Shown here: piece by piece, positions 54,231 through 61,613 of the stretch
How the letters are laid out: each line of letters begins with the position of its first letter
Numbering within the stretch: position 1 is the first letter of the stretch
NCBI GenBank assembly: GCA_945868435.1
Contig: CAMBLG010000011.1
Location: 1 to 64,000, forward strand
Length of the DNA stretch: 64,000 nt
Direction of reading: 5' to 3'
From: an uncultured Lachnospiraceae bacterium
GTDB lineage: Bacteria > Bacillota > Clostridia > Lachnospirales > Lachnospiraceae
Notes under the pieces: generated by a model
Told to the model about the DNA's origin: nothing
Database searches by the model: none
The model's input: only the letters and a program-made list of their open reading frames with translations
Position numbers and translations under genes: made by a program

Positions 54231-54671
54231 ATGTCAGCCAAGACAAGCGCAGAGGTAGTAATTGACGGTAAAGTATATACATTGAGTGGTTACGAGGGGG
54301 AAGAATATCTCCAGAAAGTAGCGGCATACATCAATAATAAGATTGCCGAATTTGAGGCAATGGATGATTACCGGTATATTCCGCTTAACATGAAGGGAAC
54401 GCTGCTTCAATTGAATATTGCGGATGATTATTTTAAGGCCAAAGCCCAGGTAGAGAAGCTGGAGCGGGATATCGAGATCAAGGACAAGGAGTTGTATGAC
54501 TTAAAGCACGATCTGATTTCCAACCAGATTAAGACCGAGAGTGCAGAAGCAGCCATGAAGGAACTGGAAGCGGAGAACAAGGAGCTCCTTTTGAATAAGG
54601 CGCGGTTGGAGGCAGCACTTGAGGATAAGCTGTTGGATGGTAAGAAGGGTCCTGCCAAGACAACTGTATAA
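54231..54671 (+). CDS. zapA: Cell division protein ZapA
   Basis: A 146-residue FtsZ-ring associated protein. The N-terminal ZapA core (AEVVIDGKVYTLSGYEGEEYLQKVAAYINNKI) is followed by a long coiled coil (about 70-140) rich in Glu/Lys/Leu. It stimulates FtsZ bundling. Longer than Gram-negative ZapA (about 110) because of the coil. RBS GGAGG; own promoter and terminator. Confidence 0.92.
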   Translation: MSAKTSAEVVIDGKVYTLSGYEGEEYLQKVAAYINNKIAEFEAMDDYRYIPLNMKGTLLQLNIADDYFKAKAQVEKLERDIEIKDKELYDLKHDLISNQIKTESAEAAMKELEAENKELLLNKARLEAALEDKLLDGKKGPAKTTV

Positions 54672-54718: not shown

Positions 54719-54774
54719 GTTTTGTGGGGAATATACATTCTTGAACGATGCTTAAGGACAGTGAGGATGGTCGA

Positions 54775-57027
54775 ATGAAAGAGGAACAGGTAACACAACT
54801 GCATAGCGGTTTTGAACTATTGGCACCGGCGGGTTCGTTGGATATTTTTCGGGCTGTCATTCACGCCGGTGCGGATGCGGTATATGTCGGTGGAGATTTT
54901 TTTGGCGCGAGGGCATATGCCCGGAATTTTTCGAAAGAGGAACTGCTGGAGGCGATTGATTATGCGCATTTGCATGGACGGAAGGTATATCTGACTGTGA
55001 ATACGCTACTGAAAAATACGGAATTAGGACGACTTTATGAGTATCTGCTTCCGTTCTACAGGCAGGGATTGGATGCGGTTCTCGTGCAGGATCTGGGCGT
55101 TCTGCAGTATATCCGTCAGTCGTTTCCGGATCTTCCCATTCACACCAGCACCCAGATGACGGTGACGGGGGTGGAGGGGGCCAGACTCTTAAAGGAGCTG
55201 GGAGCCCAGCGCATTGTGCTGTCCAGAGAGGTGTCTCTTGCGGAGATGCGCCGTATTCACGAGGAGACAGGTGTGGAACTGGAGGCGTTCGTGCACGGAG
55301 CTTTGTGTTACAGTTATTCCGGTCAATGCCTGTTCAGCAGCATGCTTGGAGGCAGAAGTGGGAACAGAGGGCGCTGTGCACAACCATGCAGACTGCCGTA
55401 CACCGTGCTGGATGCAGATGGAAAAGAATGCCGGAAGGATTCCTATGTCCTGAGCCTCAAGGATATGTGTGGAATTGGGGATTTGAATAGACTTCATGAA
55501 GCCGGTGTATACTCTCTTAAGATTGAGGGACGAATGAAGCAGTTGTCTTACGCTGCCGGTGTTGTATCTTATTATAGAAACTATATCGATCAATATCTGA
55601 ATCAGAAGGATTTGACCGAAAAGCTCATAATCCGTCCGGAGGATATGCAGCATATCCTGGATCTGGGCAATCGTTGCGGATTTACCAATGGGTATTACGA
55701 CCGAACCAACGGCAAAGATATGGTGACTTTCGTAAAACCAAGCTACGAAAAGCAAAACGAAACGCTGCAGAAAGAGATTGCGGATACTTATACGACACAT
55801 GAGTTAAGAAAACATGCCACCGGAACCGTGACTCTTGTTACCGGGAAACCGGCAAAGTACCGGGTAGTCTGCGGGGATATCAGCGTGGAAGCTTTGGGGA
55901 TTCCGGTAATGGCCGCGCAAAACAAACCTCTTGTGTGTGACGAGGTGAGAGCACGCATGGAGAAAACCGGAGACACTCCATTTGTTATGGATCACGTGGA
56001 GGTGCAGATGGAAGGGGCAGTGTTTGTCCCAAACGGAGCATTGAACGCTCTTCGGCGCGATGCGCTGGAGCAATTGAAGGAACGGCTTCTATCAGAATTC
56101 CGAAGAACGGGAGAGACGCAGGAGGCTGTGTTGGAGCAGGTTGCGCCAGTGGAGGAAGCCGCGCGTGTAATCTGTTTAATCGAACGCCGTGATCTGCTTC
56201 CTGTCATCCTGCAGAATCCTTTGACGACAACGGTGTATCTGGATGCTTCCGCCTATGATTCCAATCATTTCTGCCGAGATTTGGCAGAAGATGTGGCTTC
56301 CTGCAGGGAAGCACAGAAGGAAGTGTGTCTTGCGTTGCCCCGGGTGTTCCGCAACCGTACCAGTGACCGGTTCCATCGTATGGCAGAGGAACTTTCTGAG
56401 ATTCCGTTGGACGGAGTCGTGGTGCGCACCTATGAAGAACTGCAATTTACCACAACGGTTCTGCCGGCGTTAGCCGTGATACTTGATTACAGTATGTATA
56501 CTTACAATGACTATGCGACAGCCGCATTTTCGCAGCTTCACGTCAGCCGCAACACTGTTCCGCTGGAGTTGAACCGGAAGGAGATTGCCCACAGGAATAA
56601 CACTTCCAGTGAAATGGTCGTATACGGATATTATCCGCTTATGATCAGTGCACAGTGCGTGAGAAACAGTGTGTCGGATCGCGGATTGTTCTGCCGGAAA
56701 AAGGAACAGGATTCCGTTAAGAGGGAACTGCGCAATGTGTGCTATCTGCAGGATCGCTATCATGTTTCCTTCCCGGTGAAAAATTATTGCAGTGACTGCT
56801 ATAATGTGATCTATAATTCGCTTCCGGTGTTGCTGTTTTCCAAAATAGGCGAACTTCGGAAATATGGAGTGCAGAGCTTTCGGCTGGATTTTACGGAGGA
56901 GTCCAAAGAAGAGGTGAAGAAGGTTCTTTCTCTTTTGGAGGAATTCGCTTATGGAGCGAGAAAGGAATATCCGAAGGAGTGGCAGGATTCCTACACCAAC
57001 GGACACTATAACAGAGGAGTAGAATAA
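54775..57027 (+). CDS. Peptidase U32-family protein (collagenase-like, long form)
   Basis: 750 residues. The N-terminal U32 core has ELLAPAGSLDIFRAVIHAGADAVYVGG, EAFVHGALCYSYSGQCLFSS and GGRSGNRGRCAQPCR; a DUF3656-type middle region and a C-terminal cysteine motif (KNYCSDCYNVIYN) follow. Related U32 proteins such as RlhA and TrhP hydroxylate rRNA or tRNA bases, so an RNA modification role is as likely as proteolysis. The ATG at 54775 has GAGG eight bases upstream. The stop overlaps the start of the next gene by one base (TAATG). Confidence 0.9.
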   Translation: MKEEQVTQLHSGFELLAPAGSLDIFRAVIHAGADAVYVGGDFFGARAYARNFSKEELLEAIDYAHLHGRKVYLTVNTLLKNTELGRLYEYLLPFYRQGLDAVLVQDLGVLQYIRQSFPDLPIHTSTQMTVTGVEGARLLKELGAQRIVLSREVSLAEMRRIHEETGVELEAFVHGALCYSYSGQCLFSSMLGGRSGNRGRCAQPCRLPYTVLDADGKECRKDSYVLSLKDMCGIGDLNRLHEAGVYSLKIEGRMKQLSYAAGVVSYYRNYIDQYLNQKDLTEKLIIRPEDMQHILDLGNRCGFTNGYYDRTNGKDMVTFVKPSYEKQNETLQKEIADTYTTHELRKHATGTVTLVTGKPAKYRVVCGDISVEALGIPVMAAQNKPLVCDEVRARMEKTGDTPFVMDHVEVQMEGAVFVPNGALNALRRDALEQLKERLLSEFRRTGETQEAVLEQVAPVEEAARVICLIERRDLLPVILQNPLTTTVYLDASAYDSNHFCRDLAEDVASCREAQKEVCLALPRVFRNRTSDRFHRMAEELSEIPLDGVVVRTYEELQFTTTVLPALAVILDYSMYTYNDYATAAFSQLHVSRNTVPLELNRKEIAHRNNTSSEMVVYGYYPLMISAQCVRNSVSDRGLFCRKKEQDSVKRELRNVCYLQDRYHVSFPVKNYCSDCYNVIYNSLPVLLFSKIGELRKYGVQSFRLDFTEESKEEVKKVLSLLEEFAYGARKEYPKEWQDSYTNGHYNRGVE

Positions 57028-59789
57028 TGGTACAGTTAATCGTACAGGCCTCCAAATATCTGATGATTATATTGTTTCTGGTATACACCTATGAATGCTT
57101 TCACGTATTCACCTGCAGGGATGCCGAGAAAGGACAGCGCAAATATCGCGTTCAGCGTGGCATTTTATTTGCGATTCATTTTGATGCCTTTCTGATTTTG
57201 TATCTGACTACAGGGGATCTCAGGATGATCGGCTTCTACCTTATGCAGGTCGTTCTTTTGGCTATGTTTTTTACATCCTATCATCTGTTTTACAAGCATG
57301 CGTCGGAACTGGTTCTCAACAATATGTGTATGCTTCTTGCAATCGGATTTATCATTCTGACGCGTTTATCCTTTGAAAAGGCGTTTCGTCAGTTTATGTT
57401 TGTGTGTGCCGGATACGTACTGTCGCTTTTGATTCCGGTGATTTTGTCTAATATGTCGCTGTTTCGTAAACTGACCTGGATGTATGCAGTGGCGGGAATC
57501 GGAGCGCTGGCAGTAGTGGCCATAGCGGGTTCTACCAGTTACGGTGCCAAGCTCAGTATCTCCATTGGACCGATTTCTGTGCAGCCGTCCGAGTTTGTCA
57601 AAATTATTTTTGTTATGTTTATTGCTTCCATGCTGTACAAAAAGCATGATTTCAGGCAGGTCTGTATCACAAGCGTAATCTCGGCTGCCTTTGTGCTGAT
57701 GCTCGTGGCGTCCAGGGACCTGGGTGGGGCGCTTTTGTATTTCTTTACCTACCTTGTGATGGTTTACGTTGCAACACAGCGGTTTACATACTTTGGCGCA
57801 GGAGTTCTCGCGATGGTAGTGGCTGCTGTAGGGGGATATTTCGCGTTTTCCCATGTGCGGACGAGAGTGGTTGCGTGGGCGGATCCTTTGCGTGTCATAG
57901 ACAATCAGGGGTATCAGATCTGCCAGTCCCTGTTCGCGATCGGAACCGGAGGATGGTTCGGTCTGGGGCTCAATCAGGGAATGCCGGAAAAAATTCCGGT
58001 TGTGACCAAGGATTTTATATTTTCTGCCATATCGGAGGAGTTGGGCGGTGTATTTGCGCTGGCTCTCATTATGGTCTGCGTCAGCTGCTATTTTATGATC
58101 ATGAATGTGGCAATGAAGCTGAAGGATTCCTTCTATAAACTGACGGCAGTCGGTCTTGGAACCCTTTATGCATTACAGGTATTTCTGATGATCGGCGGCG
58201 GAATTAAATTTATTCCGTCTACCGGTGTTACACTTCCTCTGATCAGTTACGGAGGAAGCTCCCTGCTTTCCACGCTAATTATGTTTGGAATCATTCAGGG
58301 ACTGTACATTGCCTCCGGTGCCGCAGAGACCGAGGCGGCAGAAACGAAAGAATCGGTAAAGCGGAAAGCCGGAAAGCAAAAAAACATTCGCAACCGGGAA
58401 TTTCTGGTGGTCATGTATCTGTTCCTTGTCATGTTTCTGGCTATGATGGCATACTTTGTGTACTTTCAGGTGCATAAAAGTGAGGAATTTATCAACAGTT
58501 CCTACAATTCCCTGCAGGATATGTTCTCGGAGCAGGTGGTTCGAGGCGATATTGTGTCTGCGGATAATCAGGTCCTTGCCACCACGAAGGTGGATGCAGA
58601 CGGCAATGAGACGAGAGTGTACCCTTATGATGAAATGTTTGCCCATGCAGTGGGATATGCTGTGAACGGAAAAGCCGGTATTGAGAAGCAGGAAAATTTT
58701 TCCCTGCTCAGATCTCATGAATTTTTCCTGAAACAGATTGCGGACGATCTGCAGAATGAGAAGAGCCAGGGTGATACGGTGGTTACAACTCTGGATTATG
58801 AGATTCAGAAACGGGCTTATGAGGCGCTGGGGGATTCCGATGGCGCGGTGATCATTATGGAACCCAGGACAGGTAAGATTATTGCGATGGTTTCGAAGCC
58901 GGACTTCGATCCCAATAAGGTCTCCGAGAACTGGGAGTCTATCACCGCAGAGGGAAGCACGGTTCTGTACAACCGTGCAACCCAGGGCAAGTATGCACCG
59001 GGGTCGGTATTTAAAATATTTACCACTCTGGAGTATTACAGGGAGAATCCGAATGTCTATGACAAGTATGATTTCACCTGTCTTGGCGAGATTTCAGTAG
59101 ATGGCCAGACGATACACTGTGCCTCCAACAAAAAGCACGGGGAAGAGGATCTTATGAGTTCCTTTGCCAATTCCTGCAATGCTTCTTATGCCAATATTGC
59201 GCTTTCTCTGGATGCAGACCGTTTTGACCAGCTTTGTGATGATATGCTGTTTGACCGGAATCTTCCGGTGGCGTTTGAATCCGGAAAAAGCAGTTTTCAG
59301 TTGTCCGCCGATGACAGCTCTGCTATGGTGATGGAGACCGGTATCGGTCAGGGAAAAACGATGGTTTCACCGTTGCATATGCTGATGGTTACCAGTGCGA
59401 TCGCCAATGACGGTGTGCTGATGAAGCCGTATCTGATCGATCGAAGGCAGAATGTATCCGGAATTGTTGTGAGCGCCAATGAACCGGAGGAATACGGGCA
59501 GCTTCTGAGCACAGATGAAGCAAAGCTTCTTCAGACCTATATGCGTGCGGTTGTAACGGATGGAACCGGCGGCAAACTGAGCGGCCAGTCCTATACGGCC
59601 AGCGGCAAGACAGGAACGGCACAGGTGTCCGATACCTCCGATAAAACCAATGCGTGGTTTGTGGGATACGCATCCAAGGAAGGTTATGAGGACATTGCTA
59701 TCGCCGTGATCGTGGAGGGGGGAAGCTCCGGCAGCTCCTATGCAGTACCTGTGGCAAAGCGGGTGTTTGACTTGTATTTTAATCGATAG
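57027..59789 (+). CDS. SEDS glycosyltransferase fused to class B penicillin-binding transpeptidase
   Basis: A single 920-residue chain with both halves of a peptidoglycan synthase. Residues 1-430 form a FtsW/RodA/SpoVE (SEDS) domain of about ten helices, with Asp329 in KDFIFSAISEELGG at the position of the Asp needed for polymerase activity, and STGVTLPLISYGGSSLL. After a Lys-rich linker (about 440-455) and one more helix (about 457-478) comes a PBP domain: Ser660-x-x-Lys663 (PGSVFK), Ser716-x-Asn718 and Lys861-Thr-Gly (ASGKTGTAQ). No frameshift is visible; reading is continuous. The normal dimerisation/pedestal part is short. Confidence 0.95.
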   Translation: MVQLIVQASKYLMIILFLVYTYECFHVFTCRDAEKGQRKYRVQRGILFAIHFDAFLILYLTTGDLRMIGFYLMQVVLLAMFFTSYHLFYKHASELVLNNMCMLLAIGFIILTRLSFEKAFRQFMFVCAGYVLSLLIPVILSNMSLFRKLTWMYAVAGIGALAVVAIAGSTSYGAKLSISIGPISVQPSEFVKIIFVMFIASMLYKKHDFRQVCITSVISAAFVLMLVASRDLGGALLYFFTYLVMVYVATQRFTYFGAGVLAMVVAAVGGYFAFSHVRTRVVAWADPLRVIDNQGYQICQSLFAIGTGGWFGLGLNQGMPEKIPVVTKDFIFSAISEELGGVFALALIMVCVSCYFMIMNVAMKLKDSFYKLTAVGLGTLYALQVFLMIGGGIKFIPSTGVTLPLISYGGSSLLSTLIMFGIIQGLYIASGAAETEAAETKESVKRKAGKQKNIRNREFLVVMYLFLVMFLAMMAYFVYFQVHKSEEFINSSYNSLQDMFSEQVVRGDIVSADNQVLATTKVDADGNETRVYPYDEMFAHAVGYAVNGKAGIEKQENFSLLRSHEFFLKQIADDLQNEKSQGDTVVTTLDYEIQKRAYEALGDSDGAVIIMEPRTGKIIAMVSKPDFDPNKVSENWESITAEGSTVLYNRATQGKYAPGSVFKIFTTLEYYRENPNVYDKYDFTCLGEISVDGQTIHCASNKKHGEEDLMSSFANSCNASYANIALSLDADRFDQLCDDMLFDRNLPVAFESGKSSFQLSADDSSAMVMETGIGQGKTMVSPLHMLMVTSAIANDGVLMKPYLIDRRQNVSGIVVSANEPEEYGQLLSTDEAKLLQTYMRAVVTDGTGGKLSGQSYTASGKTGTAQVSDTSDKTNAWFVGYASKEGYEDIAIAVIVEGGSSGSSYAVPVAKRVFDLYFNR

Positions 59790-59865
59790 TCTGATATACT
59801 TGGTAAGAAAATATCAACCGCTGGTGATCTGCAGCAATGCATGTCACAACACAGGAGGGATTGCA

Positions 59866-60318
59866 ATGATTGAAGCAACAAGCTGTGGCGGTGTAGTAAT
59901 CTTTCGTGGTAAGATTTTACTCTTGTATAAGAATTACAGGAATCGTTACGAGGGCTGGGTTCTTCCCAAGGGAACAGTAGAAGAGGGAGAGGAATACAAG
60001 GATACTGCGATTCGCGAGGTGAAAGAAGAGAGTGGAGCCAATGCAACAATCATCCGATACATTGGCAAAAGTCAGTATACCTTTACCGTGCCGGAAGATA
60101 CCGTAGAGAAAGAAGTGCACTGGTATCTGATGATGGGCGAAAGTTATTATAGCAAGCCGCAAAGAGAAGAGTATTTTGTAGATTCGGGGTTTTATAAGTA
60201 CCATGAGGCTTATCACCTGTTGAAATTTGCCAATGAGAAACAGATTCTTGAGAAAGCGTACAACGAATATCTGGATTTAAAGAAGAGCAATTTGTGGGGA
60301 AATCACAAATATTATTAG
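59866..60318 (+). CDS. NUDIX hydrolase
   Basis: A 150-residue hydrolase with a full Nudix box in GTVEEGEEYKDTAIREVKEESGA (Glu residues of REVKEE bind metal), preceded by GWVLPKG. The substrate, a nucleoside diphosphate linked to something else, cannot be told. The ATG at 59866 lies eight bases after GGAGGG. Confidence 0.92.
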   Translation: MIEATSCGGVVIFRGKILLLYKNYRNRYEGWVLPKGTVEEGEEYKDTAIREVKEESGANATIIRYIGKSQYTFTVPEDTVEKEVHWYLMMGESYYSKPQREEYFVDSGFYKYHEAYHLLKFANEKQILEKAYNEYLDLKKSNLWGNHKYY

Positions 60319-60366: not shown

Positions 60367-60693
60367 ATGAAGTGGTACAGTAGGCTTTACGTAAGTGAAT
60401 CCATTGGAAAAAAAGCAAACCGAATAAAGTGGCGCATCAATCATAATGCCGGCACACTTTCCGTTTATGTGATCGCATTTGCGTCGAACCACGACAACCT
60501 GTTGGATATTATTCCGGCCTGGAATCTGATGCAGAAATCTTATCCCAAGGAAGATGTGAAGATTATCGGTCTTGCCAAGGGGTATGACGAAGCGCTTGCG
60601 CTGGTGCGGGATATCGTAGATGAGACCTATCAGAATACAGGAAGCGTGGATGTGTGGCGCTATCTGAAGGAGGAACGGAGGAATTCTGCATGA
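60367..60693 (+). CDS. Conserved hypothetical protein, 108 residues
   Basis: A soluble basic-to-neutral protein with no signal or membrane helix and no recognised family. It begins MKWYSRLYVSESIGKKANRI and contains an alternating strand/helix pattern (TLSVYVIAFASN, DVKIIGLAKGYDEALALVRDIV), compatible with a small alpha/beta fold. Its last four bases overlap the DUF2953 gene start (ATGA), which ties it to the DUF2953-gerW sporulation pair; a role in that process is inference. Confidence 0.75.
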   Translation: MKWYSRLYVSESIGKKANRIKWRINHNAGTLSVYVIAFASNHDNLLDIIPAWNLMQKSYPKEDVKIIGLAKGYDEALALVRDIVDETYQNTGSVDVWRYLKEERRNSA

Positions 60694-61613
60694 CAGTCAT
60701 ACTTCTGATCCTTAAGCTGATAGGGCTTCTTCTTTTGTCGGTTCTGGCTCTTGGTCTGTTGATATTGCTTTTGGTTTTGTTTGTCCCTGTACGTTATCGG
60801 GGATACGGAAGCTATCACAAAGAACTCAGACTTACGTTGCGTGTAAACTGGCTTTTACATCTTGTCACGTTTGGGGTAGACATGCTTCCGGGGCAGAAAT
60901 CCATGTATGTCCGTATTTTTGGAATTAAGAAAAATCTGACGAAAGCTGATAATACAGAAGAATTTGAAGATACTATTGAAGAACTTGCCGATCAGGGGAC
61001 AGAAGATGTTTCGGAAGATGTAAAGCAGGAGGCGGAAGCATTTGCAGATACTTCTGTGGAGGAAGCACAGGAGCATTCGAGTGAAACCGGTGCAGCTTCT
61101 TCCGAAAAAGCACAGACCTCTTCCGACACGGATACGGTATCAGATTCAGAAAAACCTTTCGGATTTATCCGGAAATGTAAGGAATTTTGGGAGCGGATTA
61201 AGAATTCGTGCAGGCAATGGAAACAGAAGCTTATACGGCTTAAAGATACCGTCTCGCGTATTCAGCGGCTGGCATCGGATGAACGTAATCAGAAAGCGAT
61301 TCATCTGATTGGCAATCAGGTGTTTCGTCTGCTGAAATGCATGATGCCCAGAAGACTGAAATTAAATCTGACCTATTCCACCGGATCGCCGGATACCACA
61401 GGAGAGCTTATGGGGGTTCTGGCGCTTTTTCCAATTGGTTATACGCAGCGCTGGAATATTATGCCTGATTTTACGGCGGATGAATTCTACGCAGACGCGG
61501 ATTTTGATGTGAAGGGACGGATTTTTTTCTTTCAGATATTAAAATGTTCGCTGACTGTTTTGCTTGATAAGAATTGCAGAAGATTATATAATAAGTTAAG
61601 AAGTGGATCATAG
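60690..61613 (+). CDS. DUF2953 membrane-anchored protein (YtfI-like)
   Basis: 307 residues. An N-terminal helix (about 3-30, LILKLIGLLLLSVLALGLLI) is followed by VPVRYRGYGSY, a Glu/Ser-rich acidic stretch (about 95-150) and a C-terminal DUF2953 core (TYSTGSPDTTGELMGVLALFP, FDVKGRIFFFQILKC). In B. subtilis ytfI (DUF2953) precedes ytfJ (gerW), exactly as here. The ATG at 60690 follows GGAGG and overlaps the stop of the previous gene. Confidence 0.85.
   Translation: MTVILLILKLIGLLLLSVLALGLLILLLVLFVPVRYRGYGSYHKELRLTLRVNWLLHLVTFGVDMLPGQKSMYVRIFGIKKNLTKADNTEEFEDTIEELADQGTEDVSEDVKQEAEAFADTSVEEAQEHSSETGAASSEKAQTSSDTDTVSDSEKPFGFIRKCKEFWERIKNSCRQWKQKLIRLKDTVSRIQRLASDERNQKAIHLIGNQVFRLLKCMMPRRLKLNLTYSTGSPDTTGELMGVLALFPIGYTQRWNIMPDFTADEFYADADFDVKGRIFFFQILKCSLTVLLDKNCRRLYNKLRSGS

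Follow-up and report, generated by a model that had tools for sequence, protein, structure and literature searches.

A single open reading frame in the genome of an uncultured Lachnospiraceae bacterium carries both a SEDS glycosyltransferase and a class B penicillin-binding protein (bPBP). The frame lies in a 64,000-nucleotide stretch of contig CAMBLG010000011.1 (assembly GCA_945868435.1), referred to here in its entirety as the window. The locus raises four linked questions: whether the fusion is natural, to which SEDS-bPBP pair it corresponds, how it arose, and what a joined polymerase and crosslinker would do in the cell.

Domain composition of the fused protein

The gene, which joins a RodA-type SEDS half to a PbpA-type bPBP half, occupies 57027..59789 on the forward strand. 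From its ATG start, the frame translates into 920 residues with zero internal stops. The N-terminal ~100 residues, ahead of the SEDS core (57027..57326, +), form three predicted helices in a low-confidence structural model; the same region is also aligned in the separate SEDS genes of relatives. The SEDS core itself spans residues 103-424 (57333..58298, +) and matches the SEDS glycosyltransferase domain PF01098 with an E-value of 1.4e-62 and 212.2 bits against a cut-off of 26.4. Its DFIF motif contributes D329, which we take to be the catalytic aspartate of the SEDS half, and Asp occupies that position in 112/112 loci.

A junction linker rich in Glu, Lys and Arg, probably cytoplasmic, follows at about residues 431-460 (58317..58406, +). 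Beyond it, residues 506-585 (58542..58781, +) form a short PbpA-type pedestal that matches the PbpA dimerisation domain PF21922 (PBP_dimer_2; E 9.6e-11; 42.2 bits, cut-off 27). The transpeptidase covers residues 606-914 (58842..59768, +; PF00905, E 1.2e-52) and contains S660-V-F-K663 (SxxK), S716-C-N718 (SxN) and K861-T-G863 (KTG). Both domains thus lie within one open frame, as a natural SEDS-PBP fusion. This bears out the earlier note, which had described an uninterrupted 920-residue SEDS-bPBP chain with Asp329, Ser660-Lys663, SxN at 716-718 and KTG at 861-863; every residue falls where it was placed. The same note had raised the prospect of mutated catalytic residues in homologues. Instead, the equivalents of D329, S660 and K663 are kept in 112/112 loci, and the KTG lysine is absent from only two of them: G121, which a contig end truncates, and G181, which is broken.

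The transpeptidase half also contains C685, C698, H704 and C717, a putative Zn2+-binding tetrad proposed by analogy. In C. difficile PBP2, PBP3 and SpoVD, according to the available text of PMC9334274, a tetrad likewise ends with the Cys that is the X of SxN, and Cys and Asp interchange at its first two places; a SEDS domain, which sets the fusion apart, is not described in that text. Residues C, C, H and C occupy the tetrad positions in 87 of the 112 loci. The tetrad is missing in G526, G701, G628, G599 and G565, among others, and a group of loci that are fused and lie beyond the window's order has none.

Family identity and genomic setting

Against NCBIfam models, the fused protein falls below the cut-offs for FtsW (205.4 vs 337.5 bits) and RodA (177.9 vs 336.7), and below those for SpoVE, PBP2 and SpoVD. 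For this reason it is not filed under any of these five. Among solved structures, the PbpA entries 3un7 (3.5e-33) and 3lo7 (4e-33) match the PBP half across the pedestal and transpeptidase, and the top matches, 4n1x and 4jbf, are named simply peptidoglycan glycosyltransferase. Among the C. difficile bPBPs, the nearest by E-value is PBP3 (7rd0, 4.7e-36), followed by SpoVD (7rcz, 6.2e-28) and PBP2 (7rcw, 2.6e-10), with protein names as given in the accessible part of PMC9334274.

In the window, zapA (54231..54671, +; PF05164, 2.9e-18) and a U32 peptidase gene (54748..57027, +; PF01136, 1.4e-91) lie directly upstream of the fusion, the U32 stop and the fusion ATG having one base in common. Pfam matches thereby uphold the location, just downstream of zapA and U32, that the earlier note had reported. 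Downstream is a NUDIX gene (59860..60318, +; PF00293; start codon assumed, open frame from 59740) that belongs to the conserved neighbourhood in relatives, and the sporulation gene ytfJ is nearby. A 319-residue protein at 60654-61613 lacks a Pfam match and keeps its position in those genus loci that have room for it; it is perhaps a DUF2953 protein.

The upstream arrangement is conserved. Genus loci have the order ruvAB-zapA-U32-[SEDS-PBP]. Across the order, U32 is upstream in 40/42 loci, the remaining two having <100 nt of upstream sequence, and zapA in 34/42, with <2.5 kb upstream in seven of the eight misses (the exception is L151). Separate pairs of the order are zapA-linked as well.

Outside the order, the setting is different. 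A PASTA kinase gene lies downstream in 20/23 loci and is followed by RsgA in 17; FHA or PP2C genes lie upstream in 19 of the 20 kinase-bearing loci, the remaining one having no room. When Pfam was run on 20 neighbours of these loci, the FhaA N-terminal domain was among the matches. Three loci (L176, L178 and L179) have no kinase, of which L178 and L179 have FHA upstream. Fusions occur in both settings, zapA-U32 and FHA/PP2C-PknB. The linkage to zapA is thus not specific to the fusion: separate pairs have zapA, and where fusions occur outside the order their neighbours are PP2C or FHA genes and PknB. The window locus itself has no FHA, PP2C or PASTA kinase linkage of the actinobacterial type, with zapA-U32 upstream and NUDIX downstream instead.

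The FHA/PP2C-SEDS-PbpA-PknB setting outside the order resembles that of Actinobacteria, where the locus reads fhaA-fhaB-pstP-rodA-pbpA-pknA-pknB in the portion of PMC6554272 available. This supports the identity of the pair, and on sequence grounds the window fusion is a RodA-PbpA pair. The likeness extends to the short PbpA-type pedestal and SEDS-then-PBP order and to extra RodA membrane helices, 12 being listed for Rv0017c in the text seen of PMC8093794. Unlike the fusion, the actinobacterial genes are separate, and in the window's order the pair has zapA-U32 beside it and no kinase genes.

Fused and separate genes among relatives

One alternative is that an error of assembly or sequencing has run two overlapping genes together. 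The concern has some basis, as the two genes of close separate relatives have an out-of-frame overlap that a single indel error would turn into a fusion, and the window genome is a draft at 83.7% completeness. The earlier note had itself named such an error as the finding that would undo its reading. Relatives argue against it. The nearest fused relative (G128, locus L060) has 75% identity over the whole chain, and its junction falls at the same position although the linker differs. Four further genus genomes are grouped in a single fused clade (SH-aLRT 100), larger fused groups having weaker support, and a fused locus is present in the single-contig genome G306. Moreover, reading through the overlapping gene ends of close separate relatives does not simply reproduce the fused linker. 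With 25 fused genomes in the full set, a joining error is hardly credible, and the fusion is best regarded as natural.

The survey of Lachnospiraceae architecture suggested earlier was also carried out. Within the genus, 60 genomes were surveyed and 54 junctions are readable, 53 as open frames and one (G137) from match rows; seven are fused and 47 separate. The excluded junctions are G120, with 100 N at the SEDS end; G139, G140, G176 and G178, without a strong match; and G157, with SEDS and no PBP found beside it. In this last genome, the SEDS gene (locus L190) encodes 490 aa, and the PBP half was not found in the 9 kb of sequence covered. In the family, sampled as 120 genomes with one per genus, fused genes are present in at least 3 (G000, G094 and G042). 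The corresponding figures are at least 8 of 295 genomes for the order and at least 11 of 398 for the phylum. In this phylum and order fused set, G181 has a break within the PBP half and a contig end cuts the SEDS half of G738. A further candidate from the family sample, G041, looked full-length, but a stop separates its halves and it was rejected.

Two side observations concern frame length. In one phylum member (G789:C12:21133-22503), the PBP half lies inside a 798-residue open frame. Loci L159-L161, L166 and L167 (genomes G820, G777, G660, G492 and G572) have SEDS frames of ~553-588 residues, with ~100 more residues ahead of the SEDS match than is the case in the window's order.

Origin of the fusion

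In the majority of the family's separate relatives covered here, the two genes overlap out of frame. Among 63 out-of-frame separate pairs, 60 share the same relative frame, and the stretch open in both frames has a median length of 77 nt, although these pairs are not independent since related loci inherit their frame. The shared frame and overlap suggest an old overlapping pair that one small indel could join. From the same evidence, the fusion is probably the derived state.

Phylogenetic analysis points to more than one change between the two states. The genus tree (57 rows, 50 from the genus and 7 from the family; 887 columns, linker excluded; G120, G144, G147 and G152 left out) requires at least 3 changes between fused and separate states, 2 of which are forced by branches with SH-aLRT of at least 95. 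Forcing the 7 fused genus rows together costs 127 log-likelihood units, and a single fused clade is rejected (AU p=2.66e-13), the constrained group having been chosen after the data were seen. A wider quick tree of 112 loci (LG+G4, G120 dropped) requires a minimum of 10 changes, 8 of them forced by strong branches. In it, the fused rows make up 10 groups free of separate rows, including five single genomes (G130, G094, G042, G181 and G745) and two multi-genome groups with support of only 69. These change counts pool gains and losses, and the 112 loci, picked by score, are skewed towards in-frame or fused loci and unfit for estimating frequency. On balance, fusions appear to have arisen several times from an overlapping gene pair.

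Separate pairs in frame also occur. In L013, L067, L096-L098, L104-L106, L108 and others, SEDS and PBP are in frame with one to a few stops between them, often TAG, and read-through of these stops would yield a fused chain. The 24 in-frame separate pairs in the set are over-represented because the search merges in-frame neighbours into one match. Programmed frameshifting in the overlapping relatives was considered and has no support: a single relative frame prevails, but many of the overlaps contain no run of six identical bases. In the fused gene, internal starts located within or close to the PBP membrane helix (GTG461, ATG463, ATG469 and later ones) have no clear ribosome site by eye.

Pedestal, linker and mechanism

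The earlier note was correct that the pedestal is short. It had further proposed that allosteric activation by the pedestal must be rearranged, or replaced by the covalent tether. In its favour, the pedestal fits the short PF21922 model well and PF03717, the pedestal type of PBP2 in RodA-PBP2, weakly (0.061). However, separate relatives are equally short: the stretch corresponding to residues 484-605 has a median of 121 residues in 25 fused loci, 122 in 24 in-frame separate loci and 122 in 63 out-of-frame separate loci, the few short values arising from alignments that start late. Linkers, in turn, range from 18 to 54 residues where measurable and have no common sequence; in L109, L114, L117, L118 and L174, the measured stretch extends as far as the PBP membrane helix or past it, again through a late alignment start. 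A linker that substitutes for pedestal-dependent activation is therefore very improbable, and this part of the proposal does not stand. Equal pedestal length and variable linkers lead instead to the expectation that the SEDS and bPBP halves act in the ordinary way while staying joined to each other.

An AlphaFold model of the fused chain has low confidence (mean pLDDT 50.4, pTM 0.48; 11-row alignment, for which a scan of genome contigs gave 7 loci). It places three helices first, then ten SEDS helices and one PBP helix, and Arg/Lys-rich stretches occur at about 30-44 and 431-460. This helix order and charge would fit a linker on the cytoplasmic side of the membrane.

Judged from its domains and conserved residues, the protein is very probably a bifunctional peptidoglycan synthase, in which a RodA-type SEDS glycosyltransferase would act in cis with its own PbpA-type partner, tethered 1:1. 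The ancestor would be a rodA-pbpA pair of two genes, linked to FHA, PP2C and PASTA kinase genes in distant Clostridia and Actinobacteria and to zapA-U32 in the window's order. One small insertion or deletion in the out-of-frame overlap would join the genes, and appears to have done so on several occasions. The linker would then serve as a variable cytoplasmic tether that fixes the stoichiometry, and polymerisation, crosslinking and pedestal-dependent activation would most likely proceed as in the separate pair.

Role in the cell

The window genome (2.57 Mb, 37 contigs) has two SEDS genes besides the fusion. One lies in a dcw cluster with mraZ, mraW, two class B PBPs, a Mur ligase and ftsZ; this SEDS barely exceeds the FtsW cut-off (339.4 vs 337.5 bits), and both PBPs score best against SpoVD, under its cut-off. 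The other lies in the cluster mreB-mreC-mreD-PBP-ParA/MinD-type-SEDS and scores best against RodA, under the cut-off. With dcw and mre SEDS systems both present, the fusion constitutes a third. Its role may lie in building the septal wall or the wall in general, alongside the pair of the dcw cluster and the mre-linked RodA/PBP2.

Family genomes place this third system in context. Exactly three SEDS genes occur in 74/120 and more in 35/120. The RodA-PbpA pair is missing, with no strong match to either half, in 10/120; MreB is kept in nine of these ten, and the number of SEDS genes is two in six of the ten. With clear SpoIIE taken as E at or below 1e-50, SpoIIE and pair thresholds set after the data were seen and kinship ignored, the pair is missing from 7 of 38 family genomes without clear SpoIIE and from 3 of 82 with it (Fisher p=0.011, 120 genomes). 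Among genomes at least 90% complete, the values are 6/33 and 1/69 (Fisher p=0.004, kinship likewise ignored). The SpoIIE model's own cut-off is passed by only 4/120 family genomes.

Two more specific roles may be weighed against these data. In one, the zapA-linked pair, whether joined or separate, would serve as the order's vegetative division synthase in place of FtsW/FtsI, with the dcw pair passing to sporulation. A division role is attractive given the zapA linkage in 34/42 loci, the description of mycobacterial PbpA/RodA as septum-formation enzymes (available text of PMC8093794) and the report, in the part of PMC10693644 available, that many Clostridia have no division-specific SEDS-bPBP pair. 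The prevalence of three or more SEDS genes, with two in most pair-less genomes, is consistent with it, and the commoner loss of the pair without SpoIIE is expected if non-sporulators let the dcw pair divide. Against this, ten family genomes manage without the pair, the window's own dcw SEDS and two SpoVD-like bPBPs could divide the cell, and the SpoIIE association carries the post hoc thresholds and neglect of kinship noted above. The proposal is a possible one, if doubtful. That the repeatedly hard-wired RodA-PbpA pair is the missing vegetative divisome synthase of Lachnospiraceae and the order, its sporulator-biased retention reflecting a role swap with the dcw SpoVE/SpoVD-like pair, is rather unlikely. 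In the other, the pair is a spore-specific synthase, a role to which the nearby ytfJ might point, as might the nearest C. difficile bPBP, PBP3, which the portion of PMC12713402 available describes as sporulation-induced. Retention of the pair in 31 of the 38 family genomes without clear SpoIIE indicates that it is not spore-specific and makes this role improbable. Septal or general wall synthesis by a third SEDS-bPBP system remains the reading favoured here.

Relation to known systems and significance

The E. coli RodA-PBP2 complex shares with the fusion the SEDS fold, the catalytic Asp and a class B transpeptidase, and differs in that its genes are separate in nature. SEDS-PBP fusions as such are already known. 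According to the available text of PMC10449877, which cites the Rhodococcus sp. RHA1 genome (McLeod 2006), single-ORF fusions exist. That example is alike in having SEDS and PBP in one ORF and unlike the window's in being actinobacterial, the comparison resting on the citing statement, not on sequence. Engineered SEDS-PBP fusions are active (PMC10449877 and PMC6207328, in the parts available). In a literature search whose coverage left most subscription journals outside, the statement of a natural fusion occurs, among the matches listed, only in the available text of PMC10449877. Within that same coverage, no paper combining SEDS, FtsW, PBP and Lachnospiraceae was found, nor were repeated state changes in Clostridia or the zapA-linked setting.

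Whether SEDS enzymes work with more than one bPBP is still under discussion, according to the text available of PMC12713402. If the single chain is functional, the polymerase and the crosslinker of these lineages would have no need to separate or to change partners. Because the state has changed repeatedly, near relatives that are fused and others that are separate occur at the same locus, and they would allow stoichiometry, activation and localisation to be compared in naturally matched pairs. This locus may also supply a specific candidate for the division synthase apparently missing from many Clostridia.
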